DNA of 40,206 nt from an uncultured Oscillospiraceae bacterium (GTDB lineage Bacteria > Bacillota > Clostridia > Oscillospirales > Oscillospiraceae). The translations under genes were made by a program, and so were the position numbers. The notes below the pieces were generated by a model, which did not search any database, was not told the DNA's origin, and saw only the letters and a program-made list of their open reading frames with translations. Location of the stretch: NCBI GenBank assembly GCA_947599875.1, contig CANQFV010000023.1, positions 1 through 40,206 of the forward strand. The letters are read 5' to 3'. Each line of letters begins with the position of its first letter. Position 1 is the first letter of the stretch. Shown here piece by piece: positions 1 to 27,035 of this stretch.

Positions 1-60
1 CGGGGACGGTTTCTTTGTACCACCAGTGCGCACACTGGTGTGACTAAGGAACCGTCCCCG
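1..60. repeat. REP-like palindromic element, copy 1
   Basis: The outer arms GGGGACGGTT and AACCGTCCCC are inverted repeats, and an inner stem CACCAGTG / CACTGGTG closes on a CGCA loop. Related elements lie at 13158-13216 and, degenerate, at 13264-13313. The layout (fixed outer arms, variable inner stem) resembles REP/REPIN-type mobile palindromes. No REP transposase is present in the window. Confidence 0.7.
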
Positions 61-289
61 TGTAACACCGGCTTCCCGGTGACGCACAACGCTGCCCTTT
101 CCCCGTTTATTATACCGCCCTCAATCATCGCGACACGGGCCGCCGTGGGCGGCGGCCCCTACGGCAAATTTTAAAGTTTTCTATCTTAACGCAACCACTC
201 TGTCACCCAACCCGCCCGGGCCGATGAGGTCATCGGCCCCTACAGGCTTCCCGGCGACGCGCCCCCCAATCCAAATATTTTTTCCAAGG
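49..289 (+). repeat. Composite intergenic repeat, left copy
   Basis: This stretch matches the reverse complement of 12940-13168 with only scattered differences (above 90% by eye over about 230 bp). It contains short palindromic modules, for example a stem around GGGCCGATGAGGTCATCGGCCC near 220-241. No plausible gene was found in 1-436. The two copies bracket the fructan locus in inverted orientation. Confidence 0.8.
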
Positions 290-5424: not shown

Positions 5425-8340
5425 TTACATCACGCTTCTCTGGTAAATGGTGATGCTGCTGATCTCGATGGTGACCTCTCCCATAGCCGCAAGGTCGCCG
5501 GAGCCGAACTGGAACAGCATCTCGAAGGGCATCTCCACGACGAGGGTGTCGGTGGTGTCAAAGGTGAAGGTCTGCTCCTCGGTGGTGAAGTCGATGCTCT
5601 CGGAAACTCTGGGATCCCAGCTTCCGGCGGGGTTCAGGAAGAAGCCGCAGGAGACGTTCTGGGTGGCCTTGCCGGTGATCTCCACGGTGAAGTAGCTGTC
5701 GGCGGGCAGATTGAAGTTCATGTAGAGCTTGTCGTGCCAGTCAACTGTGCCGCCCTGGTCGATGCGGTAGTAGAGCTTGCCGTCCTGGGTCCAGATGGTG
5801 CCGACGCCGCGCTCGTTGTCCTCGTCGGTGCCGTCGTAGTTGCCCCAGGTGTAGTCGGTGTACTGCTCGCCGGCGCGGGGAGCGGAGAACTTGTCAACGG
5901 TCTTGTGGGTCTCCAGGTCGCCCTCTAACTTGCCGAACTCCAGGCTCGTGACGGTGATGGTGTTGCTCTTGCCGGCAGCGGCGGCGGGATCCGGGCAGCC
6001 GATCTGCATACGGATGAAGGGGGCGTCGATGGAGTTCTCGGCGGTGAAGGTGTTGTAGATGGTGACCTCCTCCCCGGCCTTGAGGCTCAGGGCGTTGAAG
6101 TTGGCGCGGATGGAGGCGTCGGCGTTCTCGATGAGGAGTTCGCCGGTCTGGTCATTGGCGGCCACCACGGTGAACTTGTAGTAGTACTTGGCGCCCTGCT
6201 CGATGGCGTTGCCGCCCAGGCCCAGATCGGCCTTAACGGACCAGACGCCGCCGCCGTCCACGTTGAAGGTGTCGATCTGGTACACGGCCTTGCCGTCGCC
6301 GCAGCTGGCGGAGCCGGTGGCGCCGTCGCCGGTGCCCAGAACCACGCCGTCAATGCTGGGCTTGGAGAAGTCGCCGGTGTAGACGGGGGTCTCGGTCTGG
6401 GTGCCGGTGATCTCGTAGATCTCGATCTTGTCGATGGTCACGGTGAAGTTGGTGGGGGTGGTGTCGTCGGGGTTATCGGGGTTGGGGGTGATCTTGCCCA
6501 GATGCAGCAGGAGTTCCGCGCTGCCCTCGCCCTCGGAGGTGAAGGTAAGCTCGAAGGGGGCGATCTCGGTGCCGATCTTCACGTTGTAGGCGCCGCCAAA
6601 GGTCTCCCAACCCTCGGCGTTCTCGTTGCGGGCCAGGATGTGGGCGTAGGTCTCCTTGGTGGACTTGGCCCAGATCTTGATCCTGTAGTCGGCGGCCTTC
6701 AGCTCTTCGAGGTGGGTCCTGCCGTTGAGGTCGTTCTGGAAGGTGGTCCAGTCGCCGTCGGAGACGCCGCCGTTCATGAGCCATTTGATGAGGTTGGTAC
6801 GGATGTAGTCGTTCAGCGCGGATTCATACTGGGAGATGGTGTTCAGCTCCTTGGCGGTGAACTGGAGGTTGGGGGTGGGGGTGACGTTCTCGGGGATGTA
6901 GGGGGTCACATAGGCCTCCAGACGCTCAAGACGCAGCTTGGCGCGGGGCTCCATGTTGACAACATTGTTCCAGGCGTAGTCGCTGAGGTAGATGATGCCA
7001 AGGGGCGCGTTCTGGAGACGAAGCTCATCAGAGGTCATGCCATCGGGGATGGGCTTCTGCACCAGCATGCCGTTGGCGTCCAGCTCCTCCTCATAGACGA
7101 TGCCGATGGGGCCGTAGTTGATCTGCGCGGAGATCATGGGATCATAGTAGCGGTCAAAGTAGGTACAAAGGACTTCCACGTTGGGGACGTCAGCGAAGAT
7201 GATGACCTCGCCGGTGCTGATCTCCGGGTTGTTGGAGACGCAGGAGGTCTGGGACTTGCCGTCGGGGCCGACCAGAGGCGTGCAGACGATGTAGTTCTCG
7301 GGGTTGGAGACGACAGTCTCGCTCTCCCACCAATAGAAGAAGCCGTAAGTCTCGGCGCCCTTGCCGTTGGCCAGGAAGTTGTCCTGGCTGATCTCGAAGG
7401 AGACCTTGTCGATCAGGTTCTTGCTCACCCAGTCGGCGATGAAGTTGGTGGCCTCCTTGAAGCGGTCGTCCTGGACGGTGTAGGTGATCTTGCCGTCCAC
7501 CACAACGCGATGCTCCAGGTTGTCGTTAAGGCCGAACATGCCGTAGAGGTCGCACTGGTTGCCCTGCCAGTTGTTGTAGACGAAGCTCATGGGGCGCTCG
7601 TCGTCCGTTTTGCCGTTGCCGTTCATGTCGTTGTCGCGGAAGTAGGTCATGAGCTGCTCGGCCTGGGCGGCGGTGAGGGTCAGGCCGTCCTTCAGGTCGG
7701 CCTCGGTGATGCCGTCAACCTTGCCGGCCTTGATGGCGGCGGCAGCCCAGTCCTTGTTGAGGAACAGGATGTTGGGGCTCTGGAGCAGGCCCATCTCCTC
7801 TACGCGGGGCAGGGAGTAGATCTTGCCGTCCTCGGAAGTGAGCTGCGCCTTGATGTCGGGGCGCTCGTCCAGGATCTTCTTGAAGTTGGGCATGTACTCC
7901 AGATAATCGCTGATGGGGAGGAGCTTATGGCGCTGGGCGTACTTGTTGATCTCTCCGGTGGTCATGCCCGCGTGATAGATGGCGTCGGGCTGGGACTCAG
8001 CGTTGCTGAAAATGAGGTTCTTCTGCTGGCCGTACACGGACTCGGAGACGTTCTCCCAGGTCACATACACGCCGGTACTCTCGTAGAGGTCCTGCATGAT
8101 CTTCATGTCGTTGTAGTCGAGAGCGGAAGCGTTCTTAGAGGAGTAGATGTTGAAACTGATGGCCTTGGACCCCTCCTCGTTGAGGATGGGCTTGGTGGGG
8201 TCTTCCCACTGGTAGCCGTAATCGGAAACCAGTTTATCGACGCCGGCGTTCTCCCGGTCGTCATTCTTTCCGCCGCCGCCGCAGGACGCCAGCGTGAGGG
8301 TCAGCGCCAGAAGCAGCGTTATAGTCACAAACTTTTTCAT
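5425..8340 (-). CDS. ABC transporter solute-binding lipoprotein with C-terminal beta-sandwich extension
   Basis: A 971-residue lipoprotein with lipobox LASC (Cys20). Residues about 35-545 look like a large family-1 type sugar-binding protein of the LipO/YtcQ kind, as found with LplB/YtcP permeases. About 420 further residues follow, unusual for the family (typically 480-560). They look like three beta-rich modules at roughly 547-650, 660-805 and 820-971, each with alternating hydrophobic strands and aromatic residues, compatible with carbohydrate-binding domains, though I cannot assign a CBM family. The two permease genes lie immediately upstream and the surface hydrolase downstream, so it should capture fructan fragments. 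Role as binding protein is firm; the substrate and the function of the extension are inferred. Confidence 0.88.
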   Translation of the reverse strand: MKKFVTITLLLALTLTLASCGGGGKNDDRENAGVDKLVSDYGYQWEDPTKPILNEEGSKAISFNIYSSKNASALDYNDMKIMQDLYESTGVYVTWENVSESVYGQQKNLIFSNAESQPDAIYHAGMTTGEINKYAQRHKLLPISDYLEYMPNFKKILDERPDIKAQLTSEDGKIYSLPRVEEMGLLQSPNILFLNKDWAAAAIKAGKVDGITEADLKDGLTLTAAQAEQLMTYFRDNDMNGNGKTDDERPMSFVYNNWQGNQCDLYGMFGLNDNLEHRVVVDGKITYTVQDDRFKEATNFIADWVSKNLIDKVSFEISQDNFLANGKGAETYGFFYWWESETVVSNPENYIVCTPLVGPDGKSQTSCVSNNPEISTGEVIIFADVPNVEVLCTYFDRYYDPMISAQINYGPIGIVYEEELDANGMLVQKPIPDGMTSDELRLQNAPLGIIYLSDYAWNNVVNMEPRAKLRLERLEAYVTPYIPENVTPTPNLQFTAKELNTISQYESALNDYIRTNLIKWLMNGGVSDGDWTTFQNDLNGRTHLEELKAADYRIKIWAKSTKETYAHILARNENAEGWETFGGAYNVKIGTEIAPFELTFTSEGEGSAELLLHLGKITPNPDNPDDTTPTNFTVTIDKIEIYEITGTQTETPVYTGDFSKPSIDGVVLGTGDGATGSASCGDGKAVYQIDTFNVDGGGVWSVKADLGLGGNAIEQGAKYYYKFTVVAANDQTGELLIENADASIRANFNALSLKAGEEVTIYNTFTAENSIDAPFIRMQIGCPDPAAAAGKSNTITVTSLEFGKLEGDLETHKTVDKFSAPRAGEQYTDYTWGNYDGTDEDNERGVGTIWTQDGKLYYRIDQGGTVDWHDKLYMNFNLPADSYFTVEITGKATQNVSCGFFLNPAGSWDPRVSESIDFTTEEQTFTFDTTDTLVVEMPFEMLFQFGSGDLAAMGEVTIEISSITIYQRSVM

Positions 8341-12939: not shown

Positions 12940-13168
12940 ATATTGGAATTGGGGGGGAGCATCGCCGGGAAGCCTGTAGGGGCCGATGACCTCATCGGCC
13001 CGGGCGGGTTGGGTGACAGAGCGGTTGCGTTAAGATAGAAACCTTTAAAATTTGCCGTAGGGGCCGCCGCCCACGGCGGCCCGTGTCGTTGATTGAGGGC
13101 GGTATAATAAACGGGGAAAGGGCAGCGTCAAGCATCACCGGGAAGCCGGTGTGACACGGGGACGGTTC
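12940..13168 (-). repeat. Composite intergenic repeat, right copy
   Basis: Reverse-complement partner of 49-289, with the same order of palindromic modules and the same flanking GGGGACGGTTC arm. The region 12831-13638 contains only repeats and hairpins; I found no credible gene in it. Confidence 0.8.
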
Positions 13169-13216
13169 TTTAGTCCCATCTCCGCTTTGCTCCGATGTGA
13201 CGAAAGAACCGTCCCC
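13158..13216. repeat. REP-like palindromic element, copy 2
   Basis: GGGGACGGTTCTTT at the left and AAAGAACCGTCCCC at the right form the conserved outer stem, with a different, imperfect inner region from copy 1. Confidence 0.7.
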
Positions 13217-14588: not shown

Positions 14589-15890
14589 TTATTGGCAAAA
14601 GCGCGCCACGGCCTGGGCGAACATCTGTCCGGCAAGCATCAGCTCCCGGATCTCCACCCGCTCGTCCGGCTCGTGCATGTGAACGTCGGAGCCGGGAAAT
14701 TCCGCCCCGAAGGCCACGCCGCCCCGGATGTCGTGGACGTAGGTGCCGCCGCCCATCGCCAGGGCCTGCGCGGGCTTGCCGGTGGCGTCTTGATAGATCT
14801 CCAAAAGTCCCTGGACGAAGGGCGAGTCCGCCGGGGTGTGGTGGGGCTGGGAGAGGCCCAGGATCTCCACCCTGGCCGCGCCGTCCAGTTTGGCGGCGAA
14901 GGCGGCGGCGATCTTCTCCCCGTCGCCGCAGATGGGCACACGGCAGTCCACGTCGATGCGCAGGCCGTTTTCCTCATCATAAGTCATCACGCCGGGATTC
15001 ACGGTGAGGGCGCCGGAGATCTCATCCCGGCAGGCCGCGCCCACGGCCTCCCCCGACACGTCGCCGTGGGGGAACGCCTCACGCAGTCTGCGGAAAAGGT
15101 GGAAACCGGGGCCGTCAAGGGCGGACAGCCGCTGGATCATCCCTGTCACCGCGTTGTCCCCCTCCCAGGGCAGGCTGGCGTGGGCGGCGCGGCCCTGGAT
15201 GCTCAGGCGCGTGCCGTCGGATAGGACGGCCTCGCAGACGGAGGGCACGGCGTTCACCACCGAGCCGCCCCGCAGGGACGCCACATGTCTCCCCTCCCCC
15301 GCATAGGCCGGGGCGGTGACGCAAAAGTGGAGCCGCCCCTTCTCCGTGTTCACGACGGGGAAATTCCCGTCCGGGGTGAAGACCTGGGGCGGCATGGGGT
15401 AGTGTTCCATGTACCAGGCCAGGTCGCCGGAGCCGCACTCCTCATCGGAGCCGAGCATCAGGCGGACGCCCTTTTTCAAAAGCCCCAGCTCCCGGGCGCA
15501 GAGGATGGCCCACAGGGCGGCCACGGCGGGGCCTTTGTCGTCGATGACGCCCCGGCCGTAGATTTTTCCGTCCAGAACGCGCATGGTGTAGGGGTCGGTG
15601 ACGCTCCACGCCCCTCCGGGGGGCACCACGTCCAGGTGGGCCAGGATGCCCAGCTCCTCCTGCCCCTGGCCGGCGTGGATCACCAGCATCCGGTCACCCG
15701 CGATCTCCCCCTGAAGTCCGTGGGAACGGGCGATCTCAAGCGCCGTGTCCAACGCCCTCCTGGGGCCGGGGCCGAAGGGCGCGCCCTCCCGCGGCTCTCC
15801 CCTGACGCTGTCCACCTGAACAAGGCGGGCGATGTCGGCGAGGATCTCCTCCTCATGCCGGGCAAAAAAATCCTGGATCCTGCTGTCCAT
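14589..15890 (-). CDS. M20-family (PepV/Sapep-like) metallo-dipeptidase
   Basis: A 433-residue zinc peptidase predicted to hydrolyse dipeptides in the cytoplasm. Zinc-site and catalytic segments are visible: ILAHLDVVPPG (His, Asp), GRGVIDDKGP and GSDEECGSGD (catalytic Glu-Glu pair), with the C-terminal metal His in GSDVHMHEPDE. Size and the GRGVIDDKGP pattern match the PepV / SACOL1801-type group rather than PepT or DapE. ATG 15890 has GGAGGAGG at 6 nt; upstream ATGs lack an RBS. It is transcribed from a well-formed promoter divergently from slp1. Confidence 0.92.
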   Translation of the reverse strand: MDSRIQDFFARHEEEILADIARLVQVDSVRGEPREGAPFGPGPRRALDTALEIARSHGLQGEIAGDRMLVIHAGQGQEELGILAHLDVVPPGGAWSVTDPYTMRVLDGKIYGRGVIDDKGPAVAALWAILCARELGLLKKGVRLMLGSDEECGSGDLAWYMEHYPMPPQVFTPDGNFPVVNTEKGRLHFCVTAPAYAGEGRHVASLRGGSVVNAVPSVCEAVLSDGTRLSIQGRAAHASLPWEGDNAVTGMIQRLSALDGPGFHLFRRLREAFPHGDVSGEAVGAACRDEISGALTVNPGVMTYDEENGLRIDVDCRVPICGDGEKIAAAFAAKLDGAARVEILGLSQPHHTPADSPFVQGLLEIYQDATGKPAQALAMGGGTYVHDIRGGVAFGAEFPGSDVHMHEPDERVEIRELMLAGQMFAQAVARFCQ

Positions 15891-15941
15891 AATTTCCTCC
15901 TCCAAAACCGGATTTTTATCCGGGAAACACCGTTTTGCCCT

Positions 15942-15970
15942 ATTGTACCACCAAGGAGGCGACTTTTCAA
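15942..15970 (-). promoter_or_regulatory. Sigma-A promoter of the dipeptidase-yihY operon
   Basis: Minus-strand -35 TTGAAA (15965-15970) and -10 TACAAT (15942-15947) with 17-bp spacing. A CCGGAT / ATCCGG hairpin (15908-15923) lies in the leader. Confidence 0.75.
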
Positions 15971-15996
15971 CCACTTCCATAAAATGTACATGTCAC

Positions 15997-16010
15997 GCGC
16001 AAGACACACG
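15997..16010 (-). repeat. Isolated copy of the recombinase-flanking 9-mer
   Basis: GCGCAAGACACACG contains CAAGACACA (16000-16008), the 9-mer found in tandem on both sides of the recombinase gene (19026-19045, 20365-20384). It lies about 100 bp outside the left 95-bp inverted repeat, upstream of slp1. I did not find one upstream of slp2. Confidence 0.45.
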
Positions 16011-16110: not shown

Positions 16111-16205
16111 TTATTAAGGAGGAAACACTACATGAAGACTCTCAAGAAGACCCTGTGCTTGGTCTTGGCGGTAGTCATGGCGGTTGGCGTTCTCGTCTTG
16201 CCCGC
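16111..16205 (+). repeat. 95-bp perfect inverted repeat, left copy (RBS plus signal peptide of slp1)
   Basis: Base-for-base identical to the reverse complement of 23568-23662. It covers the RBS AAGGAGG, the ATG and about 24 codons of signal peptide, then identity stops abruptly. Within it AAGACC (16147-16152) and GGTCTT (16161-16166) form inverted arms around an 8-bp spacer, a layout typical of tyrosine-recombinase crossover sites. Confidence 0.95.
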
Positions 16206-18897
16206 GTATGCTGTGGACACCACGGCTGCGGTCACCACGGCTGCGGACGCTGATGCCACTGCGGCGTTCGCAGCCCTGAAGATGTACGGCGTCGTCAGGG
16301 GCGTTGATGCTGCTGGTGACGGCGACCTCGGACGTAATGTCCATCGTGAGGACGTCGCCGCGATCGTCTATCGTATCATGACCGGCGACACCACGGAGAC
16401 CCAGCTGAAGAACTACGAGAAGTACGCTGACGATTATGCCGACAGCGCCACCTTCTCCAAGTGGTCCAAGGGCTACATCGGCTACGCCGCCGTTAATGAC
16501 ATTTTCGTCGGCGATGCCCAGGGCAATTTCAAGCCCAAGGACGACGTGACCGGCCGTGAGCTGGTTATCGTTCTTCTCCGCTGTATCGGCTACGGCCAGA
16601 ACCATGAGTTCGAGGGCGCGAACTGGTCCAAGAACGCTCTTGCTCAGGCTCAGGCGATCAACATGTTCGGCGGCACCGGTCGCTACACCGTCAGCACCGA
16701 CATGAAGAACGCCATCTCCCGCGGCGTTGTTATGAAGCTCGTTTCCAACGCTGTCAAGACCCCCCGCGTTACTTACTACAGCGGCGCTTACTCCAACCAC
16801 AAGGATATGGCTCGTCCCTCCCTCAACAACAATGGGCAGGCCGATATCAACACCCCGCTGATCGACGTCACTTCTGTGGGCGGCGCTACTGAGGCCGGTG
16901 TGAATGACTGGGGCATTCCTTACTCCGCTGTCACGGAGAAGACTGTGACTTGGACCTTCACCAATCCTGTTGTTGCCGTTTCCGGCTCCACCAAGATTCC
17001 TGCCAGCTCCAAGCTTGATACCCCCCTCTATGATTCCTTCACTTATGAGGATCACTGCGACGTGGCCGACAAGGCCGGCATCAAGGCTGATGCTGTTGCC
17101 CTGACCTACCTCAACGGCAAGGCCGGTGCGAACCTGACCATCGACGTGAGCGATGAGGACACCATCATCGGCACCAATGGCCGTCACACCCTGCTTTATG
17201 CTAACACCGATGCCAACACCAAGGAAGCTGCTCCTTATGTCCTTGTCCAGATCGACACCTATCTGGCTGTCGTCACCTCTGTTGCCACCAGCAGCAAAGT
17301 CGTTGACAAGAACGGCCATGTGATTGTCGAGAGCAAGACCAACGGTAGTGTTGCCGTCTATGTGAACAACCAGAAGACCGTTCCTCTGGCTCTGGCTGCC
17401 ACTCTTCCCGATGGCTCCAAGGTTGGCGATCTGGTTCTCGTCAATGTGAACGAGAAGGCCGCTGCCGCTGTCATGTCCGATCCTACTGTCGCTGCTGCCG
17501 ACGTGACCGTCTGCGCTCCCAAGACCGCGACCGTCACCGTTAAGGAGATCACCAAGGGCCACAACGGCGTTGAGAACATCATCGGCTTCGTTGACACCAC
17601 CGGACATCAGTATTATTACAGCAACACCTTCTGCGGCGACAAGCTCCAGGAGAACGCCATCGGCAAGGGCACCTACACGCTGGTTCTTGACCGTCAGGGC
17701 TATGTCCTTGATTGCGCTCTGGTCACCACCACCGATTCCAACTTCGGCGTTGTCACCGGCAGCAAGGTTGTCACTCTCGAGGACGACAAGGGCTATGTCA
17801 TCCAGCTGACCCTGCTTGATCCCGAGGGCAAGACCGTCACCGTGAACGTGGGCGATTACGACACTGCCGGCAAACCTTGGGCTGACAAGGCTGACGCCAC
17901 TGCCGAGATGAACAACATCTTCGGCGTTGGCTACCTGATCCACTACACTCTGGGCACTGGCGGCTATTATTGCGACACCTCCAAGGGTTACACCAATGGC
18001 CTGACCACTCCCACTGAGAGCGCTGTTAACAAGGTCGTTCCCGGCCGTGTGGACATCACCGATACTTACGGTGCTGACTTCGTCCGCGGCACCGCCGGCG
18101 CCCAGGGCTTCCTGGTCAACGACGACACCATCATCTTCGTGGCGCAGAATGTCATTGACAACACCACCATCGATGACAAGAACGACTACAAGTTTGTTGG
18201 CTACGCTCTGTACTCCTTCAAGAACCTGCCCATCCTCACTGTTGAGAACGGCGTCTCCGCTATTACCGGTATGCCCGGCTTCTCTGTGAGCCAGGTCAGC
18301 CTCCAGGCCCTCACCGCTGCTGGCAAGGCTCCTGCTGCCGGCGAGTATGCCAAGTACGTTGTGATCAACGGCTCCACCAAGCAGATCACCACGCCCGAGA
18401 AGATCGACACCATCAACTATGCCTTCATCTTCGGCAACAGCGAGATGAAGCAGGTGGGCGACTCCTACTTCACCTTCCAGGCGTATGTGAACGGCGGCAA
18501 GACTCCCATCAAGGTCAGCCTGAATGCCGGTAACGGTGTGGTTGCCAACGGCCTGTACGCTTACGGCACTGCTGTCAACGTCAACGGCGAGATCGCCTAC
18601 ACTGAGGTCACCCTTATGGATGGCAACAGCGGCTTCGCTTCTCCCTACGGCGCCAGCTTCAAGATCGCGAAGAACGGCTTCAACTACAGCAAGGGCGTTC
18701 TGACCGACACTGCCAACAACGTGTTCTACAACGTGGCTTCCAACTGCAAGGTCTACACCGTTGCTCCTAACGCCAACGAGGGCCGCGAGATTGTCAATGG
18801 CGTCGCTGAGCTGAACGCTTATGCCGATCACGACATCTGGTATCAGCTTGACGAGCTGGGCAACATCAGCCTCATCTACGTTGACATGAGCAAGTGA
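16132..18897 (+). CDS. S-layer homology (SLH) domain surface protein, slp1
   Basis: A 921-residue exported protein. A signal peptide (KTLKKTLCLVLAVVMAVGVL, cleavage near AYA) is followed by SLH-type repeats over about residues 38-205; the second is clear around YADSATFSKWSKGYIGYA and FKPKDDVTGRELVIVLLRCIGYG. SLH domains bind secondary cell-wall polymers. The remaining roughly 700 residues are Thr/Val/Gly-rich beta-strand-like sequence, as in S-layer arrays. Codon use is strongly biased (GCT, GTT, CGT and AAG frequent), unlike its neighbours and consistent with high expression. AAGGAGG lies 9 nt before the ATG. I see no convincing promoter in the 240 bp before it, in contrast to slp2. The first 74 bp of the gene are identical to slp2. 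Confidence 0.9.
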   Translation: MKTLKKTLCLVLAVVMAVGVLVLPAYAVDTTAAVTTAADADATAAFAALKMYGVVRGVDAAGDGDLGRNVHREDVAAIVYRIMTGDTTETQLKNYEKYADDYADSATFSKWSKGYIGYAAVNDIFVGDAQGNFKPKDDVTGRELVIVLLRCIGYGQNHEFEGANWSKNALAQAQAINMFGGTGRYTVSTDMKNAISRGVVMKLVSNAVKTPRVTYYSGAYSNHKDMARPSLNNNGQADINTPLIDVTSVGGATEAGVNDWGIPYSAVTEKTVTWTFTNPVVAVSGSTKIPASSKLDTPLYDSFTYEDHCDVADKAGIKADAVALTYLNGKAGANLTIDVSDEDTIIGTNGRHTLLYANTDANTKEAAPYVLVQIDTYLAVVTSVATSSKVVDKNGHVIVESKTNGSVAVYVNNQKTVPLALAATLPDGSKVGDLVLVNVNEKAAAAVMSDPTVAAADVTVCAPKTATVTVKEITKGHNGVENIIGFVDTTGHQYYYSNTFCGDKLQENAIGKGTYTLVLDRQGYVLDCALVTTTDSNFGVVTGSKVVTLEDDKGYVIQLTLLDPEGKTVTVNVGDYDTAGKPWADKADATAEMNNIFGVGYLIHYTLGTGGYYCDTSKGYTNGLTTPTESAVNKVVPGRVDITDTYGADFVRGTAGAQGFLVNDDTIIFVAQNVIDNTTIDDKNDYKFVGYALYSFKNLPILTVENGVSAITGMPGFSVSQVSLQALTAAGKAPAAGEYAKYVVINGSTKQITTPEKIDTINYAFIFGNSEMKQVGDSYFTFQAYVNGGKTPIKVSLNAGNGVVANGLYAYGTAVNVNGEIAYTEVTLMDGNSGFASPYGASFKIAKNGFNYSKGVLTDTANNVFYNVASNCKVYTVAPNANEGREIVNGVAELNAYADHDIWYQLDELGNISLIYVDMSK

Positions 18898-18939
18898 TTG
18901 GTTCTCCCCTGAACCGTCACATCGCAACGTGATAACCTG

Positions 18940-18975
18940 GATCCCCCTCGGCGAAAGCCGAGGGGGATCTTTTTA
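18940..18975 (+). terminator. Intrinsic terminator of slp1
   Basis: GATCCCCCTCGGC, GAAA loop, GCCGAGGGGGATC, then TTTTT. It lies 43 nt after the slp1 stop. Confidence 0.95.
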
Positions 18976-19020
18976 TCTCTTCCCGCCGGGGATCCTTAGA
19001 CCCCCACGGGGTTCGTTGAA

Positions 19021-19078
19021 AATTTTGTGTCTTGTGTGTGTCTTGCGGCAAAAAACTGGGGGATATTCCCTGGAAATC
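19021..19078 (+). repeat. Recombinase-flanking inverted repeat, left
   Basis: Two TGTGTCTTG 9-mers (19026-19034 and 19037-19045, 11-nt period) are followed by CGG, an A run, TGGG and GGATATT. The reverse complement of 20331-20385 shows the same order with a few differences. Tandem short direct repeats of this sort resemble arm-type binding sites of tyrosine integrases. Confidence 0.75.
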
Positions 19079-19081
19079 AAC

Positions 19082-20164
19082 TTAACAATCGTAAGAGATC
19101 TTATCCACCTCGCCAATCAGCTCCGGGATGTCCTTGTGGGTGTAGCGGTCGGTCACGTCACGCTGGCTGTGGCCCACGATAAACATCACGGCCCCACGGC
19201 GGACGCCGGCACTGTCCAATGCGGAAACAAAGGTGTGCCGGGTGTCGTGGGGCGTGTGATCCATGCCAAGGCCGGGTAGGGTCTTGTCGAACCAGCCGTA
19301 TTTATATTGCGCGTAGGTGAGCTTTCCGCCGTCCGGGGCGGGGAGGAGGTTGTCGCCGCCCCGGGAGATCATCCGCTCCATCACGGGCAGGATCTGCCGG
19401 TGCAGGGGCACCTGCCGGCGGGCCGCCCGGGTCTTCGTCCCCCGCAGGTCGATATATCGCTCCCGGAGCTTCACGTCCTGTCGCCTCAGCTCCAATAGCT
19501 CCCCAACCCGCAGGCCGGTATACAGGAGCAGCAGCACCGAACCCGTGAGTCCCAGGCCCCGGAACCGCTCCGGCTCCGTGGGCAGCGGCCTCTCCCCGCG
19601 CCAAACCTCCCAGAGGATCCGGATCTCCTGCGGGGTGAACACCCGGCGGCGCGTCTCCCTCTCCTCCGCCGTCAGCTCCACAAACTGCGACCAGTCCCGG
19701 TCTACGATCCCCCGGCTCATGCCCCAGCGAAAGAGCATGTGCATCAGCGACCGCACCTTGGACTGATACCCCCGGGACTTGTCCCCCATGAGGCGGATCA
19801 CCTCCTGAAGCTCCCCGGTGCGCAGCTCCCGAAGCGGGACATTCCAAATCGGCCGGCACAGGGCCATCGCGCTCTCCGTGACCCGCTGGGTGCTGGGGTA
19901 TTTCTGAAAATACTCCGGTCGCCAGCGCTCGTACACCTGGGCGAAGGTCATGCTCCTGTTCCCGAGATCATACGGCCCCCGGTTATATTCCGCCAGGGCG
20001 ATCATGGCCTCGCTGCGGGTCTCGTAATACCCCAGGGTGGTGAACTGCTGCAGGTCCGTCCCGTCGGAGCGCGTGTCCCACCCGGTGGTGATCCGCACCC
20101 GGTAGGGCCGCCGCCTGTTCCCCGGCAGTCTGCTGACGCCGCCGTACCCGTTAGGATTCCTCAT
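19082..20164 (-). CDS. Tyrosine site-specific recombinase / integrase
   Basis: A 360-residue recombinase. The N-terminal part (about 15-65) resembles the integrase arm-binding domain, residues about 72-165 the SAM-like core-binding domain, and 175-360 the catalytic domain. The catalytic set is complete: Arg219 (TGLRVGE), Lys near 244, His306-x-x-Arg309 (HDTRH), His332 (GHS) and nucleophile Tyr341. AGGAGG lies 8-9 nt before the ATG. No excisionase, phage, plasmid or conjugation gene is nearby, so it is not part of an intact prophage. Its position between two S-layer genes with inverted 5' ends suggests a role in inverting that segment. Target sites are unproven; it could also be a relic integrase. 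Confidence 0.93.
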   Translation of the reverse strand: MRNPNGYGGVSRLPGNRRRPYRVRITTGWDTRSDGTDLQQFTTLGYYETRSEAMIALAEYNRGPYDLGNRSMTFAQVYERWRPEYFQKYPSTQRVTESAMALCRPIWNVPLRELRTGELQEVIRLMGDKSRGYQSKVRSLMHMLFRWGMSRGIVDRDWSQFVELTAEERETRRRVFTPQEIRILWEVWRGERPLPTEPERFRGLGLTGSVLLLLYTGLRVGELLELRRQDVKLRERYIDLRGTKTRAARRQVPLHRQILPVMERMISRGGDNLLPAPDGGKLTYAQYKYGWFDKTLPGLGMDHTPHDTRHTFVSALDSAGVRRGAVMFIVGHSQRDVTDRYTHKDIPELIGEVDKISYDC

Positions 20165-20330
20165 CCAATCAACCTCCTGTCGTGATGGTAATGTTGTCCA
20201 TTATGAGGTCTGCGGCCCGGTTTGGCAAGGCCGGAGGGACGAAAATTATGGATAAATTCCGAAAATCGATCCCCAAACCGCCCGATGCCTGCTCTAAAAA
20301 CCGGCCTTCGCCACAACCGTTAATCTCCCC

Positions 20331-20385
20331 AATTTGCCAGCGAAATATCCACCCATTTCTCCCGCAAGACACAAACAAGACACAC
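20331..20385 (-). repeat. Recombinase-flanking inverted repeat, right
   Basis: CAAGACACA occurs twice (20365-20373, 20376-20384) with an 11-nt period, preceded by AATATCC, CCCA and a TTTCT stretch mirroring 19021-19078. Together the two copies bracket only the recombinase gene. The stretch 20165-20457 holds this repeat and a GCACGG / CCGTGC hairpin (20391-20406), and I see no gene. Confidence 0.75.
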
Positions 20386-20457
20386 GGGAAGCACGGTCAA
20401 CCGTGCGGTTTACATAATTTTCTGCGTTACGGATGCGATCTCCATACAGACAAAGGT

Positions 20458-20485
20458 GTCCCCCTGCCCATACGGGCAGGGGGAC
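20458..20485 (-). terminator. Terminator hairpin of slp2
   Basis: GTCCCCCTGCCC and GGGCAGGGGGAC enclose a 4-base loop, about 30 nt after the slp2 stop. The following T tract on the minus strand is short. Confidence 0.75.
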
Positions 20486-20515
20486 AGTTGCTTGGAAATC
20501 AGTTGCTCGCCTTAA

Positions 20516-23500
20516 TCAGCCAATGGTGAAGATCTCAGTGGTGACAGTGGGCAGAACCTTGGTAGCGAGGGTGGTGTCAACCACGTTCAGCGTAGCGGTG
20601 GCAGCGATGGAGGCATCCTTGACAGCAATCGCGATGGAGGCATAATAGGTGCCCTTCACGAAGATGTCGCCCTCATAGACCTCGAACTTGCCGGTGGTCT
20701 CGTTGGCCTTGTACCAAGTGACCGTGGCAGTGCCGGTAGTGGCGGCGGTAGCCGTGTCAACCGTAACAGTGAAGTACTCGTCCTTGGTGGACTTGTTCAC
20801 GGCAACAGCCTTGGTCTGCTTCAGGGTAAGAGCGGAGACGACGTTGGGGGTGGTAGCACCCGTGCCGCCAGCAGCGCCCTGACGCTCAACGGCGTAGATG
20901 GTGCTGACGTAGCCGTCAACATTCAGCTCAAAGAAGAACTCAAACGCGCCCTTGTAGAGCTTGTAGAGCTGCTCAATGGTCTGGGTAGTGGCCTGAATCT
21001 TACCGTTCACGGTGTTGAACTGATAGATGGCGACGTTGGGAACAACGGTCAAATAAGAAGTCGTCGCGGTAGTGCCGTTCAGGGCAACAGGGGTGCCCAG
21101 AGTGATAACGCCATCCTTGTAAGTCCAGTTGCCGGTGACCTGGTTCACAATGCCAGTGGGAACCTTGCTGGTACCGTTGGTGTCCTTCTCCAGGATGCGC
21201 AGGCCGGGGATCTTAACGTCCTTAGCGTAGTCGTTGTTCACGGGCAGAACGGTGTCCACGCCATTCTGGAAGATGTTGAAGTTGTAGTTGTTATCAACGA
21301 TGGTTCCGGAGACATTGACGCCAGTCTTGAACAGGGCGTACTCAGGAACGGTCTGCGTGGAAGTACTCCACTGAGTGGCGTAGTTGACAAGGACATAATC
21401 CATGTCAGCGTCGTCCACGTCAGCATTGTTGAAATAAGAGACATCCATTCCGGCGACGCCGGTAACTTCCTTGCCATTGACGAAAACCTTGCCGGACTGA
21501 TAGGACAAGTCGCGGAGGCCGTCAGCCTGGAAACCGGTGAAGACCTGATAGCCGTCGAAGCTGTAGCCGCCCAGGGAGTTCTTCATGGAGTACTTGGCAA
21601 CGAAGAACACGGTGGTGTTGTTGACCAGCTTGTCGGAGGCATACGCATTAGCGACGCCAGCATCAAACTTGGAACTCACTGTAGTCGGCAGATAAGTGCC
21701 CTTTGTAAGCGTATAGTAGTTATTCTTGGAATCGATGAGACGCCAGTTCACCAGGGTGCCGAAAGCGGGAATGAGATGATTATCCTCATCCGCAGCGGTG
21801 AAGCCCTCAACGGTGCCGGTCGTAGTACCAAGGCCCTTGACAACCGTCATGGTCTTGGTCTCGCCCTTCTCGGTGAGAACAGTGACCTGGATAGCGTACT
21901 GGGAAGCGGTAGTACCCGCGCCGGGAATCACGCTGCCGGTGCCGGTAATGGCTGTAGAGGTGCCAACGCCGGTGACAACGCCGTAACCGGTGTCGGAAGC
22001 GCCGACCTCACGGTCAATACCGATGATGTTGTTGTGGCCGTCGGTGTAGACAACATAGGTCTTGCCGATGTCGGTAGCCTGAGGAACATAAGTGTTGCAG
22101 CCGTTGGGGGAAGCAACAGTGCTGTTGTAGGAGTAGGAAATGCTGTAGTAGTAGTCCTTGCCGCCGTCCCGGATACCAACGATCTCAGGAACGCCGTTGA
22201 CATAAACGAAGATAGGCTCGGTGAAGGTGATGGTCTCGGCCTTAACGGCGGCATCCTTCACAACCAGGGTCTTTTCCGCGCTCGTCACTGCCGCATTGCC
22301 GGCGGAGGTGAGGACATAGCTGGAGAAGAAGGACTTCTCAGCGGGGCCGGTGACGTCAGTCTTGTTGTCAGTGACGCAATTGCCGTTAGCAACCGACAGT
22401 CCAGTTGCCGGGCGCACAGCGCCGTTGGGGACAGCCAGACCGAGCATCGCGTTGTTGTACCAGACAGAGCTGACTTCCCTGGTCTCCTTGGCACCAGCGG
22501 TGACATGGCCGCCGAAATCGGTGGTTGAGCTGCCAGCAGCGATGGTGGCACCGGTCTTGGCAAGAACGACATCCTTGAAGACGATGCTGTAGACATCAGC
22601 GCCGGCGGCGTTCTTGTAGACGTAGATGTTGGTCTCACGGCCATAGGCGCCGATGGTAGTGGTGGTGTCATCAGTGATCTTGATGGCGCCCACATTGCCC
22701 TTACCGTTGGTATAGGTGATAAAGGTCTTGTCCTTCGCAGCGGAAACAGCGGTGACGATGTCGCACATGGTCATCGGGGTGTAGAACGTGAGAACAGGCG
22801 TGGCAGCCGCATCGGGTCCACCCTTGATCTCAGCGGACGTAAGCTCGCGGGGAACAACGGGGAAGTTGCAGGTGGCAACAACCTTGTAGCTGGCGGTGGT
22901 GCCGGCGGCAGGAGCGCCGAAGTCGTCAACCGTGGAGTTGGCCTTGACGGCGGCAGCGGTCTCGACATTCTTGATGTCAACCAGCTTCTTGCCGGTGTCA
23001 ACATACTTGTGGCCGTCCCAGGTCACGATGTTGTTGCCGCAGGCGTTCACAACCATGATGAAGGCCTGGCCGCGGGTAGCGGCTTTGCTGGGATCGTAGT
23101 TGGTGAGGCCCTTGAGAAGAGCCAGACGATTGGCCTCCTCCTTGACGCCCTTAGACCAACCGGTGCCCTCGAACTCGCCCTGCTTGCCGTAGCCCAGAGC
23201 GCGGAGCAACATGGCCAGCAGCTCAGTGCCGGTGACGTTGTCCTTGGGGGCGAAGGTGCTGTCGCCCTTACCCTTGACGATCTCGTGATGCCAGCCGTAG
23301 CCAATGTAGCCCTTTTCCCATTTGGCAAAGCTGGCGGAGTCGGCGAAGTTCTTCGCGTCCTCCACGGTGGCGCTGGTGTACTCATCCTTGACGTCCGCGG
23401 TCATCAGACGGTACATAATGGCAACAACGTCAGAGCGGGAGAGATTCCTTCCCAGCTCAGCGTCGCCGCTGGCATTAGTACCCTTCAGAATCCCGACGGC

Positions 23501-23641
23501 ATGGAGCGTGTCGTAAGCGTCCTTGCCAACCGTCGCAGCAGCTGCAGTAGTAGTATCCGCAGCAGCAGCGGGCAAGACGAGAACGCCAACCGCCATGACT
23601 ACCGCCAAGACCAAGCACAGGGTCTTCTTGAGAGTCTTCAT
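20516..23641 (-). CDS. S-layer homology (SLH) domain surface protein, slp2
   Basis: A 1041-residue exported protein. The signal peptide is identical to that of slp1 and ends near AAAAD. SLH repeats cover about residues 38-210, with FADSASFAKWEKGYIGYG and FAPKDNVTGTELLAMLLRALGYG corresponding to the slp1 segments but clearly diverged (roughly half identical by eye). The rest is Thr/Ala/Val/Gly-rich and different from slp1. ATG 23641 has AAGGAGG at 9 nt; a start upstream at 23704 has no support. Two promoters and a leader of about 360 nt precede it, as is common for abundant S-layer proteins. This is the likely expressed S-layer gene in the orientation shown. Confidence 0.9.
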   Translation of the reverse strand: MKTLKKTLCLVLAVVMAVGVLVLPAAAADTTTAAAATVGKDAYDTLHAVGILKGTNASGDAELGRNLSRSDVVAIMYRLMTADVKDEYTSATVEDAKNFADSASFAKWEKGYIGYGWHHEIVKGKGDSTFAPKDNVTGTELLAMLLRALGYGKQGEFEGTGWSKGVKEEANRLALLKGLTNYDPSKAATRGQAFIMVVNACGNNIVTWDGHKYVDTGKKLVDIKNVETAAAVKANSTVDDFGAPAAGTTASYKVVATCNFPVVPRELTSAEIKGGPDAAATPVLTFYTPMTMCDIVTAVSAAKDKTFITYTNGKGNVGAIKITDDTTTTIGAYGRETNIYVYKNAAGADVYSIVFKDVVLAKTGATIAAGSSTTDFGGHVTAGAKETREVSSVWYNNAMLGLAVPNGAVRPATGLSVANGNCVTDNKTDVTGPAEKSFFSSYVLTSAGNAAVTSAEKTLVVKDAAVKAETITFTEPIFVYVNGVPEIVGIRDGGKDYYYSISYSYNSTVASPNGCNTYVPQATDIGKTYVVYTDGHNNIIGIDREVGASDTGYGVVTGVGTSTAITGTGSVIPGAGTTASQYAIQVTVLTEKGETKTMTVVKGLGTTTGTVEGFTAADEDNHLIPAFGTLVNWRLIDSKNNYYTLTKGTYLPTTVSSKFDAGVANAYASDKLVNNTTVFFVAKYSMKNSLGGYSFDGYQVFTGFQADGLRDLSYQSGKVFVNGKEVTGVAGMDVSYFNNADVDDADMDYVLVNYATQWSTSTQTVPEYALFKTGVNVSGTIVDNNYNFNIFQNGVDTVLPVNNDYAKDVKIPGLRILEKDTNGTSKVPTGIVNQVTGNWTYKDGVITLGTPVALNGTTATTSYLTVVPNVAIYQFNTVNGKIQATTQTIEQLYKLYKGAFEFFFELNVDGYVSTIYAVERQGAAGGTGATTPNVVSALTLKQTKAVAVNKSTKDEYFTVTVDTATAATTGTATVTWYKANETTGKFEVYEGDIFVKGTYYASIAIAVKDASIAATATLNVVDTTLATKVLPTVTTEIFTIG

Positions 23642-23662
23642 GTAGTGTTTCCTCCTTAATAA
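23568..23662 (-). repeat. 95-bp perfect inverted repeat, right copy (RBS plus signal peptide of slp2)
   Basis: Exact reverse complement of 16111-16205. Flanking sequence differs on both sides, so the shared block has sharp edges. Confidence 0.95.
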
Positions 23663-23999
23663 AATTTGTTGATTTGGTTTTCGCCCGTTACATGAACCGG
23701 ACAATTTGTTATGTAAACGCCGGACCGGTGCCGGTCGGCATTAACACCAAGGTCTGGGATCGGCGCCCGATCCCGATTCACGCCCTTTTGACTGAACCCG
23801 GGGGTCTTTTGTTCCACCTTTTTTCCCGAAAAATTTTGGAATTTTTCCGAAAGGAGGAGTACGGCGAAGGATCTCGGTTGGGCGGTTCCTTGACCCCCCG
23901 CCGTACACTTACAAAATGAAGACTGTTGCCGCTCCGCGTGCTTGACGGTGCGGATCTTCAGACCCTGTCGGGGTAAATCCACGGCTGTTCCGCGGATTT
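23663..23999 (-). other. Long untranslated leader of slp2
   Basis: About 360 nt from the predicted start site to the ATG, with no credible ORF. Several hairpins are visible, including AAATCC / GGATTT arms around 23979-24002 and a GATCGGGCGCCGATC-like stem near 23757-23772. Long structured leaders often stabilise S-layer mRNAs. It lies outside the inverted repeat and would stay in place if the segment inverted. Confidence 0.55.
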
Positions 24000-24005
24000 G
24001 ATGAC

Positions 24006-24034
24006 ATTTTATCACAACCTTATGTCAATGTCAA
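24006..24034 (-). promoter_or_regulatory. Strong sigma-A promoter of slp2 (P1)
   Basis: Minus-strand -35 TTGACA (24029-24034) is a perfect consensus; -10 TAAAAT (24006-24011) has 17-bp spacing. Confidence 0.85.
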
Positions 24035-24338: not shown

Positions 24339-27035
24339 TCACCTGATGACGGCTCCCAGCTCCTCCGAGAGGGCCGCCAGGATCCTGGTCAGCGCCTCGT
24401 CGGCGTGGGCGTCGGTGAGCGTTCCGCCGTCGGAGCGCAGGGACAGGGAATAGGCGGTGGAGCGCTTGTTCTCCGGGATGCCGGGCCCCTCGTACACGTC
24501 GAACAGGGCCACGGACTCCAGGGTCTTGCCGCCGGCCCGGCGGATGCAGGACTCGATGCGGGCGACGGTGACAGAGCGGTCGGCGATCAGCGCCAGGTCC
24601 CGGGTGACTGAGGGGTACTTGGGCAGGGGCCGGTACTCCGGGTCGGGGCCTACGCTGGCCAGAAGGCCGTTAAAATCAAGCTCGGCGCAGTAAAGCTCCT
24701 GATCCACGCCGTAGTTCCTGGCCACACTGGGGTGGATCTGGCCCAGGACGCCGACGCAGCGGTCCCCGGCATACACCTGGGCGCAGCGGCCCGGGTGGTA
24801 GGAGGGATTTTCCTGGCAGGGCGGCTCAAAGGACACCCCCTCCGCCCGGATGCCCCGGAGGACGGCCTCCACGGCGCCCTTGAGGGCGAAGAAGTCCATG
24901 TTCTCCCCGTAGGCGCCCAGGGTCAGGACCCGGTTCTCCACGGCCAGGCCGTCCTCCCCGCCGGGGAGGTAGACGCGGCCAAGCTCGTAGAGCTTTACGT
25001 TCTTGTTCCGGTAATTGAAGTTGCGGGCCAGAATCTCCAGCATGGACGGCAGGGCCGTGGTGCGCATGATGGAGGTGTCCTCCCCCAGGGGGTTCAGGAT
25101 CTTGAAGGACTGGCGGCGGGGATCCTGGGCGTCCCAGCCGATCCGGTCATAGGCGGAGGGGGAGATAAAGGAGTAGGTGATGATCTCGTCATAGCCGCAG
25201 TTGCGGGCAATCTCGCCCAGGCGGTTCTCCAGCTTCTGCTCCCGGCTGAAGCCGCCCTGGGTGGTCTGGCCGGACATCAGCGTCACGGGGATGTTGTTGT
25301 ACCCGAAGAAACGGGCCACCTCCTCCGCCAGGTCGGCCATGCGCCGCACGTCGCCGCGCCAGGAGGGGACGGTGACGTCCCGGCCCTCCACGGTGAAGTC
25401 GAGCTTGCGCAGGATGCGAACCATGTCCTCCTCCGGGATGTCCGTTCCCAGCAGGGCGTTGATCTTATCCGGCTCCAGGCGCATGTGCCACGGCTCCGGC
25501 ATCCGGTTGCGGATGTCGATGACGCCGTCCAGCACCTCCCCGGCGCCCAGCAGCTCCACCAGCTCGCAGGCACGGTTCACGGCGGGGAGGGTGTTCATAA
25601 TGTCCAGGCCCTTTTCAAACTTGGCGCTGGCCTCGGTGCGCATCCCCAGGGCCAGGGCGCCCTTGCGGATGCAGGTGCCGTCAAAGTTGGCGGATTCAAA
25701 GACCACGTCGGCGGTATCGGAGACGATCTCGGAGTTCAGGCCGCCCATGATGCCGGCAAGGCCCACGGCGCGGGTGTCGTCCGCGATCACCAGGTGGTTG
25801 GCGTTGAGGCGGTGAACCTGGCCGTCCAGGGTGGTCAGCTCCTCCCCCTCCGCGGCCCGGCGAACCACGATCTTGCCGCCCTTGACGTAGCGGTAGTCAA
25901 AGGCGTGCATGGGCTGGCCGTACTCCAGCATCACATAGTTTGTGATGTCCACGATGTTGTTGATGGGGCGCACGCCCATCGAGCGAAGGCGCTCCCGCAT
26001 CCACTTGGGGGAGGGGCCGATCTTCACGTTCCGCACCATCCGGGCGGTGTAGCGCGGGCACAGGTCGGGGTCGCGGGTCTCCACCGTCAGAAGGTCGGTG
26101 AGGATGCCGGGGCCGCCGCCCTTTACGACGGGGGTGTGGAGCGTCAAGGGTCTGTCAAATGTGGCCGCCGCCTCCCGGGCAAGGCCGATGACGGACAGGC
26201 AGTCCGGGCGGTTGGGGGTGATCTCAAACTCCACAACGCTGTCGTCGGCGTTGATGATGGGTTTTATATCGTCGCCGGGAGCGCAGTCCTCCCAGAGGAC
26301 GAAGATGCCGTCGGGGATGCAGTGGGGGAACTCCTGCTGCTGGGCGTGGAGGTCTGAAAGGGTGCAGACGGTATCTGTTTTGGTGTTGTAGGCCACCATG
26401 TCCCCCTCGTGGATGTTCTGGCACGGGGTATGCGTGGATCGCGTTCCGCTGCCGGTATCCAATTCACACGGATACAGGTCATACGGGCCTGCCTTGCCGG
26501 CGATCCCAACGACTTTCGCCGCGACAACGGGGCCGTAAATCTTGTCCCCGGGCCTTATGTCCGCGGGGATGCTGGGCTTCTCGGGGTCCGTGGGGTGGTA
26601 GTCATTTAAAAGGGCGGCGGCGGTGATGCCGGCGTAAGGGAAGTCCCGCTCGTCCAGGCCCAATTCCTTCAGGGAGCAGAGCATCCCGTCGGACAGCACG
26701 CCCCGGAGCTTGCCCCGCTCGATCTTCTTCCCGCCGGGGAGGGTGGATTTGTGGAGCGCCACGGGCACCATATCCCCCGCGTGGATGTTCCAGGCGCCGG
26801 TGACGATCTGGACAGGCTCCTCCCGGCCCACATCCACCTGGCACACCCACATGTGGTCGGAGTCCGGGTGGCGCTCCATCGTCACGATGCGGCCCGCCAC
26901 CACGCCGGAGATCTCCGCCCCCAGGTCACGGGTGCCCTCCACCTTGGAGCCGGAGAGAGTCATGGCCTCGGCAAAATCCCTGTCGGAGGCGTCCACGTTC
27001 ACAAATTCATTCAGCCATTTTCTTGATAAGTTCAT
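24339..27035 (-). CDS. pheT: Phenylalanine-tRNA ligase beta subunit, with duplicated OB-fold
   Basis: An 898-residue subunit of the tetrameric enzyme that charges tRNA-Phe. The order is standard: N-terminal B1 segment, OB-fold tRNA-binding domain (about 44-125), B3/B4 editing domain, B5, the core, and the C-terminal ferredoxin-fold anticodon-binding domain (from about 810, PKYPSVTRDLALI). Length exceeds the usual ~800 because about 105 residues (135-240) are inserted after GMLCSLKELGL. This insert looks like a second OB-fold: VVAAKVV, YPCELDTG and NIHEGDMV align with VVAGRIV, WVCQVDVG and NIHAGDMV of the first. GGAGG lies 7 nt before the ATG. It follows pheS by 12 nt. Confidence 0.96.
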   Translation of the reverse strand: MNLSRKWLNEFVNVDASDRDFAEAMTLSGSKVEGTRDLGAEISGVVAGRIVTMERHPDSDHMWVCQVDVGREEPVQIVTGAWNIHAGDMVPVALHKSTLPGGKKIERGKLRGVLSDGMLCSLKELGLDERDFPYAGITAAALLNDYHPTDPEKPSIPADIRPGDKIYGPVVAAKVVGIAGKAGPYDLYPCELDTGSGTRSTHTPCQNIHEGDMVAYNTKTDTVCTLSDLHAQQQEFPHCIPDGIFVLWEDCAPGDDIKPIINADDSVVEFEITPNRPDCLSVIGLAREAAATFDRPLTLHTPVVKGGGPGILTDLLTVETRDPDLCPRYTARMVRNVKIGPSPKWMRERLRSMGVRPINNIVDITNYVMLEYGQPMHAFDYRYVKGGKIVVRRAAEGEELTTLDGQVHRLNANHLVIADDTRAVGLAGIMGGLNSEIVSDTADVVFESANFDGTCIRKGALALGMRTEASAKFEKGLDIMNTLPAVNRACELVELLGAGEVLDGVIDIRNRMPEPWHMRLEPDKINALLGTDIPEEDMVRILRKLDFTVEGRDVTVPSWRGDVRRMADLAEEVARFFGYNNIPVTLMSGQTTQGGFSREQKLENRLGEIARNCGYDEIITYSFISPSAYDRIGWDAQDPRRQSFKILNPLGEDTSIMRTTALPSMLEILARNFNYRNKNVKLYELGRVYLPGGEDGLAVENRVLTLGAYGENMDFFALKGAVEAVLRGIRAEGVSFEPPCQENPSYHPGRCAQVYAGDRCVGVLGQIHPSVARNYGVDQELYCAELDFNGLLASVGPDPEYRPLPKYPSVTRDLALIADRSVTVARIESCIRRAGGKTLESVALFDVYEGPGIPENKRSTAYSLSLRSDGGTLTDAHADEALTRILAALSEELGAVIR

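Follow-up and report, generated by a model that had tools for sequence, protein, structure and literature searches.

Do two surface-layer (S-layer) genes that converge on a recombinase gene, and that begin with the same DNA in inverted orientation, form a switch that decides which coat protein is made? The question is raised by contig CANQFV010000023.1 (assembly GCA_947599875.1) of an uncultured Oscillospiraceae bacterium; the window, that is the whole stretch of 40,206 nucleotides that we analysed, carries the SLH-domain genes slp1 and slp2 with a tyrosine recombinase gene between them. We conclude, with a probability of roughly 0.8, that the locus is a surface-coat switch, in which the recombinase inverts the DNA between the 5' cores of the slp genes and thereby changes the gene that stands behind a single promoter. 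Comparison with related genomes makes switching appear the best reading of this sequence.

The locus and its expression site

The features on which the argument draws first are these:
16111..16205, + strand: left 95-bp block, with the ribosome-binding site (RBS), start codon and signal peptide of slp1; exact match to 23568-23662 reversed
23568..23662, - strand: right 95-bp block, belonging to slp2; one of two copies from the genome search
16132..18897, + strand: slp1, SLH protein of 921 amino acids (aa), presumably silent in the present arrangement; Pfam SLH, no promoter-like site within 600 bp upstream
20516..23641, - strand: slp2, SLH protein of 1041 aa, occupying the expression site; Pfam SLH, promoter-like site and conserved leader upstream
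19082..20164, - strand: tyrosine recombinase, integrase type, 360 aa; PF00589 E 4.5e-20, predicted N-terminal strand-strand-strand-helix domain
24006..24034, - strand: promoter-like site TTGACA-17-TAAAAT, with TG before the second hexamer; 11 of 12 consensus matches
23663..24000 (ends approximate), - strand: conserved 5' leader of the expression site; alignment of 18 leaders
23851..23924, - strand: conserved leader segment with an 8-bp GC-rich stem (GUACGGCG/CGCCGUAC); 26 upstream regions
24339..27035, - strand: pheT, the expression-side flank; Pfam, position kept in several relatives
14589..15980, - strand: M20 peptidase gene, the silent-side flank; Pfam, position kept in several relatives

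The initial annotation had claimed an identical inverted block at both slp 5' ends, and the two copies do match at 95 of 95 bases (21 before the ATG and 74 after it); a search of the genome for further copies, which it had advised, turned up these two, both within the window. In an inverted-repeat scan the block is repeat I2, which extends with mismatches to 119 nt. Its edges are sharp, as had been said, because identity drops at once (ungapped, to 32% at 20-60 bp upstream, and to 51% and then 26% downstream), but the further statement that the genes are unrelated beyond their SLH part was too strong, since the two proteins align at 34% identity across residues 1-868 of slp1 (E 1.2e-54), most of its length. 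Each protein has one Pfam SLH match over the cut-off, which places both among SLH-domain proteins; their N termini, read by eye, look signal-like, and their size, SLH domain and promoter suggest that such proteins form the S-layer lattice.

The slp2 promoter that had been assumed is borne out in that, within the window, only the slp2 side has a conserved promoter-like site (393 bp before the slp2 ATG) and leader, so that a single promoter is found there together with a promoterless copy sharing the inverted 5' end; promoter-like sites are, here and below, consensus matches and not evidence of transcription. The stem of the leader segment has identical pairs in all 26 upstream regions compared, some of them from genomes without a found recombinase (the selecting pattern already sets some of the 3' side). 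At gathering thresholds Rfam gave no matches in the window, and the segment is possibly an RNA element controlling S-layer expression.

We evaluated the leader in the 34 available genomes of the genus (handles G, with contigs C and loci L), 18 of which bear an orthologue of the recombinase. The leader GTTCATGTAACGGG and its relatives, required to lie within 80 bp of an ATG, occur at one place each in 16 of these 18 by pattern, and in 17 when G016 is counted, whose leader is assigned from a 39-base contig end (the two leader contig ends of G024, with a 77-bp overlap, are taken as one place); in G020 the pattern was not found. The leader adjoins pheT or an Mbeg1-like gene (11 leader loci checked for flanks, plus the window). 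Upstream DNA of 300 bp or more is available for 18 leader sites, 16 of them in genomes that bear the recombinase and the other two in G014 and G030, where it was not found; each of the 18 shows a promoter-like site with 11 of 12 matches, located between -384 and -540.

Recombinase, 5' core and tandem motif across the genus

The enclosed gene is indeed a complete tyrosine recombinase, as first annotated: besides the PF00589 match, R219, K244, H306, R309, H332 and Y341, which we take to be the catalytic residues, are invariant across the 18 orthologues. The structure model (mean predicted local distance difference test score 85.5, predicted template modelling score 0.62) has an N-terminal domain of three strands plus a helix, and the closest PDB matches are the Tn1549 integrase by sequence profile and Tn1549, then Brujita phage and lambda, by fold. 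Orthologues in the genus are 63-74% identical to that of the window. SLH genes lie on both sides of the recombinase in 14 of the 18 genomes by an open reading frame search, with G017 the 15th through an slp1 match; in G019 and G020 an SLH gene is present on a single side, and in G028 the recombinase is near a contig end, such that 17 of the 18 orthologues adjoin an slp gene and the 18th stands near a contig end.

A search of genome contigs gave 18 loci at 60% identity or more, all in metagenome-assembled genomes titled uncultured Oscillospiraceae and 'Lapin', a French word from which we take them to be, apparently, from rabbit gut; one of these loci, L205, apparently belongs to a different genus, as contig C121 of genome G237 (judged by contig number and position). 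Among the distant recombinase loci (identity of 39% or less), 22 of 33 were checked; none had the core, nor was any of their recombinase genes enclosed by an exact inverted repeat of at least 22 bp. The Pfam scan of seven window proteins returned SLH, integrase, M20 peptidase, PheS, PheT and Mbeg1-like matches, and no conjugation gene among these seven.

Comparison of orientation in relatives had been proposed in the initial annotation; that of the recombinase gene could be scored in 11 of the 18 genomes (from one flank only in G013, G017 and G018), and both orientations are present, six one way and five the other. On the recombinase tree this amounts to at least four changes, which are not clustered (366 of 500 shuffles are as low). 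Segment inversion is not thereby proved: we rejected orientation as proof of it and counted it as support for rearrangement only, because in several species the recombinase gene is flanked by its own inverted repeats and because cassette identities do not tell a flip of the segment from one of the lone gene.

Such repeats flank the recombinase gene itself at L205:4134-4326 and 5532-5724 (stretches of 113 and 71 bp), and also at L106, L110, L104 and L108; they are often slp terminator hairpins, and the recombinase gene may flip on its own. In the window, a terminator scan lists two hairpins at the slp genes:
18939..18970, + strand: terminator-like hairpin of slp1
20457..20486, - strand: hairpin 3' of slp2

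A separate observation concerns the window's own genome, which holds eight tyrosine recombinase matches of 98-102 bits to PF00589 (contigs C6, C7, C8, C12, C17, C25 and C42), two of which lie close to a contig start (150 bases or fewer); these near-equal matches may be a repeated element or other switches.

To follow the shared 5' end beyond the window, we scanned the 34 genomes with a core pattern of 35 bases (two degenerate positions, up to three mismatches allowed), which is present in 30 of them at 74 collected sites. The 18 recombinase-bearing genomes have two to six matches each, 56 in total and all at zero mismatches, although a core split by contig ends may count twice (C71 and C11 of G024 are one place) and slp genes that start beyond a contig end fall outside the count. 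Of the 16 genomes without a found recombinase, four have two or three cores, eight have one and four have none; six single-core genomes, G003-G008, share an ACT to ACC change in codon 3. In a family sample of 400 genomes the core occurs in 11, namely 10 drawn from the genus and G237. The window's own genome has 37 SLH domain matches on 14 contigs, and the core pattern is confined to the contig of the window. A phage origin of the core was considered and dropped, viral contigs having given no exact matches.

Conservation of the core extends to synonymous positions. With one cassette taken per genome, codons 2, 3, 6, 7, 8 and 9 are identical in 18 of 18 recombinase-bearing genomes, and codon 11 in all 17 that have Val there; across species slp codon identity is highest in codons 1-16 and fades after codon 16. 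As a control we used 125 invariant recombinase residues from the same 18 genomes, for which mean codon identity is 0.63 and 14% are fully identical (a control matched for ancestry and unmatched for selection on translation initiation). Between species, the conserved part measures approximately 65-70 bp, which is shorter than the 95-bp block of the window. Within it lie the candidate crossover sites, where we would place the exact point of exchange:
16147..16166, + strand: candidate crossover site AAGACC-CTGTGCTT-GGTCTT, slp1 codons 6-12; inside the DNA-conserved codons
23607..23626, - strand: candidate crossover site AAGACC-CTGTGCTT-GGTCTT, slp2 codons 6-12; inside the DNA-conserved codons

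A second conserved element, absent from the initial annotation and with consensus CGCAATACACGCGCAAGACACA, is a tandem motif found upstream of the recombinase gene in many species and on both sides of it in some. It occurs three times in the window:
15987..16008, + strand: tandem motif upstream of silent slp1, starting 145 bp before the ATG, five mismatches to consensus; candidate arm-type recombinase site
19026..19047, - strand: tandem motif downstream of the recombinase gene; motif search
20363..20384, + strand: tandem motif 5' of the recombinase gene; many orthologues are preceded by similar sequence

At silent cores the motif keeps a nearly constant distance. When the interval from -140 to -95 is searched with up to two mismatches, sequence like AAGACACA begins 130-137 bp before the core ATG at 38 of 41 silent sites, these being the silent sites with enough DNA minus eight that are leader-like (G003-G008, G010 and G012). 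The best 22-base consensus match within 300 bp has three to eight mismatches at 38 of the 41 silent sites (eight at six of them), compared with 8-11 at the 18 leader sites and 8-12 in one shuffle per site. This score is not independent, because the motif was derived from these same loci; its stronger points are its spacing and its absence at leader sites. Integrases of the lambda type bind arm sites through an N-terminal domain of the three-strand-plus-helix type, and it is because a domain of this type is predicted here that we read the tandem motif as a candidate arm-type recombinase site. Besides the three copies in the window, the own genome has four further copies of CGCAAGACACA (C4, C10, C59 and C70), about the level expected by chance.

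Exchanged cassettes and contig ends

A first view of rearrangement comes from G015 and G024, which are sisters on the recombinase tree and which we compared by BLAST (as we did G016 with G025, and G033 with G020). The leader contexts of the two agree at 96% across an alignment of 282 bases (G015 carries an insertion), and their silent M20 contexts at 93%, and yet the cassettes at matching contexts differ (68% identity at the leader and 67% at M20, with other cassette pairs at 67-76%). The leader cassette of G015 resembles instead the M20-site cassette of G024 (81%; protein 80% over 569 residues; 83% over 2.5 kb), and the leader cassette of G024 resembles a cassette at another G015 site (87%; protein 96% over 575 residues), the next-best protein matches of these exchanged cassettes being 38-40%. 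The two genomes also share a 15.8-kb segment (95.6% identity) that G024 carries between leader and M20 and G015 on another contig, the leader-M20 locus of G015 holding the recombinase segment instead. The joint maps from about -30 to between +75 and +125 relative to the ATG, that is, at the 5' block, and cannot be placed more narrowly because the SLH parts resemble each other. Two loci of this pair, G015 C41 (L121) and G024 C11 (L122), contain convergent slp pairs that are bounded by cores and enclose approximately 14-16 kb without a recombinase.

Contig ends offer a second, indirect view. A contig end is no more than 200 bp away from 28 of the 74 core sites, and 18 of those 28 belong to recombinase-bearing genomes. 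The contig record titles carry SPAdes-style NODE names, from which we take the assembler, and overlaps between ends suggest an assembly k of 77. Seven contigs start shortly before a core. In G013, G015, G016, G022 and G024 they start 47, 58, 39, 50 and 50 bp before the ATG, and the matching distances after the ATG at which cassettes diverge are 30, 19, 38, 27 and 27, so that the sum is 77 in all five; the terminal 77-mer therefore holds flank-specific bases and ends where known cassettes part. In these five genomes the contig ends thus imply one flank followed by at least two slp cassettes within a sample, and in G016 and G024 the flank in question is the leader. For the two other starts (28 bp in G015 and 24 bp in G024), the distance matches the extent of the shared upstream sequence, as would be expected where two flanks precede a single cassette. 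Ends with merging flanks (G014, G017, G018, G020, G021, G029, G030 and G032) were excluded from the count, because a repeat longer than k can give them.

Alternative arrangements are therefore found between sister species, and within samples they are implied by contig ends. To this extent the predicted fixed leader with an exchanged cassette holds, but the two-gene toggle originally pictured does not: up to six core matches per genome point to a genus-wide family.

One further inverted repeat of the window (39-267 and 12952-13178) was rejected as part of the system because it is a dispersed repeat of approximately 230 bp, of which about 40 nearly full-length copies are among the 80 matches listed, several near contig ends; it looks like an interspersed element.

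The proposed switch, its rivals and known systems

In the mechanism that we propose, a single expression site (promoter, long leader and RBS) would adjoin pheT, and the other SLH cassettes, here slp1, would be leaderless and begin with the same RBS and signal-peptide DNA. The Tn1549/lambda-type integrase between the convergent cassettes would pair the expression core with a silent core and, the cores being inverted, recombination would flip the intervening segment. The flip would place a different slp gene behind the fixed promoter without disturbing the frame or the signal peptide, leaving the mature proteins unaltered because the block is identical, and the upstream flanks, with or without the tandem motif, would remain in place. 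Inversion in the window's own genome, catalysis by the encoded recombinase and the resulting change of coat are what we would predict from this scheme. We also suggest, more tentatively and at somewhat less than even odds, that productive synapsis always joins the expression site (armless, attB-like) to a silent cassette (arm-bearing, attP-like), giving directional antigenic variation; as part of that same suggestion, the integrase would have been recruited from a mobile-element type and would act across several chromosomal loci.

Several observations weigh against the proposed switch. Some cassettes break the 3' part of the core (G013 C72 and the left one of G022 C5 at about codons 11-13, and the right one of G015 C41 at codon 7). 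The core sequence is partly common to single-copy genomes without a recombinase, and translation initiation therefore accounts for some of its conservation; G010, G012, G014 and G030 have several cores and no found recombinase, with contigs ending at cores in all four. The core dyad AAGACC-N8-GGTCTT is not significant alone (254 of 2000 shuffles are as good), and the tandem motif is not at its place at three of the 41 silent sites (G016 C12, the left one of G025 C19, and G032 C27 27055, where a match lies closer to the ATG). Of 49 non-leader sites, nine reach 11-12 of 12 in the promoter match, 15 have a match of 9-10 of 12 and 25 have none. The nine comprise six in G003-G008 and one each in G010, G012 and G021; the upstream regions of G003-G008, G010 and G012 look like diverged forms of the same leader, and C103 of G021 (L181), which has a core without the conserved leader and a 12-of-12 promoter-like site approximately 410 bp before the ATG, is the true exception to one strong promoter per genome. 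Cassettes are exchanged at their 3' ends too, which recombination at the core alone does not account for. The junctions within samples are implied from contig ends, indirectly and without reads: the 13 end overlaps (at least 20-25 bp counted) are of 77 bp in four cases (G014, G021 and twice in G024), 127 bp in two (G010 and G012) and 41-71 bp in seven; for G015 and G024 the fitting divergence distance was one of several; G024 is the only genome whose flank contig itself (C71) was among the sequences compared; and mixed strains or chimeric reads could be the source of such ends. The contig of the window itself shows one arrangement, with no such break at its cores.

These points bear unequally on the alternatives. 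A switch that is real but driven by RecA homologous recombination, with the recombinase a passenger or acting on its own flanking motifs, could use the exact repeats that reach 453 bp (G029) and 491 bp (G027) downstream of the ATG, and would accommodate both the exchange at 3' ends and the weak dyad; we nevertheless consider it unlikely, because the recombinase lies between two cassettes in 15 of the 18 genomes, codon identity across species peaks in codons 1-16, and the arm-like motif stands at a fixed spacing before silent cores only. It is rather less likely again that the recombinase works for a mini mobile element, or inverts nothing but its own gene between the repeats that flank it, with the S-layer repeats incidental. 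Inverted motif copies or longer inverted repeats do flank the recombinase gene in several species, and its orientation varies (six genomes against five), but the constancy with which orthologues adjoin an slp gene (17 of 18, the other near a contig end) and the presence of the motif at a fixed distance before silent slp cores as well argue against this explanation.

Least credible of all, and in our estimate very improbable, is that the 5' ends are kept alike by gene conversion or selection on translation with no switching whatever. The likeness of the RBS and first codons in single-copy genomes without a recombinase speaks for it; opposed to it are whole cassettes and segments, well beyond 95 bp, that relocate between sisters, a leader that occupies one place per genome, and contig ends that imply two cassettes behind one flank. 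Inversion by the encoded recombinase is the reading that we retain.

The logic of such a switch is already known. Sap proteins of Campylobacter fetus are not known to have an SLH domain, and their genes have a long conserved 5' region and depend on RecA for recombination; the silent homologues reportedly have a conserved N terminus. Because of this difference in domains we treat sap as an analogue only, so that the parallel drawn by the initial annotation stands for the logic and not for a homologous family. For sap, one conserved promoter region is described, with only the adjoining homologue transcribed and homologues frequently exchanged (PMC3887049). Single-promoter logic is thus shared with sap, whereas our locus has a linked tyrosine recombinase, a short core, a tandem motif and SLH proteins.

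In Lactobacillus acidophilus, slpA and slpB lie in opposite orientation and share their 5' ends; there are two genes, of another S-layer protein type, and no recombinase is known to lie between them. A chromosomal inversion that makes SlpB dominant is described (PMC5893755). Inversion of slp genes is common to both systems, and here the recombinase lies between the genes and the proteins are of the SLH type.

The mycoplasma vpma, vsp and vsa systems (Xer1, Mbr and HvsR) have a nearby tyrosine recombinase, and their inversions join a silent gene to a unique promoter; the vpma recombination sites are located upstream of the start codon, at -1 to -72, and in vsa a silent 3' end acquires the promoter, the RBS and the first 714 nt (PMC2268961). 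Those systems encode lipoproteins, whereas here SLH genes are spread over several contigs, the core reaches into the signal peptide, the recombinase is predicted to have an N-terminal domain of integrase type, and arm-like motifs accompany the silent copies alone. With the Tn1549/Tn916 and lambda integrases our recombinase shares profile and fold matches and the N-terminal domain, but in this genus it adjoins S-layer genes.

Among the titles and abstract openings listed by searches of an open-access library, none describes an SLH S-layer switch of this kind. What appears new is the combination of an integrase-type recombinase, SLH S-layer genes and candidate arm sites at silent copies only. 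If the proposed switch is true, S-layer change would be linked to a recombinase in a genus of gut Clostridia, whose S-layer is the surface that phages, host antibodies and neighbours meet first; variation of the S-layer could then be tested in a commensal, and the locus would provide a test of an arm-bearing integrase as a directional gene selector.

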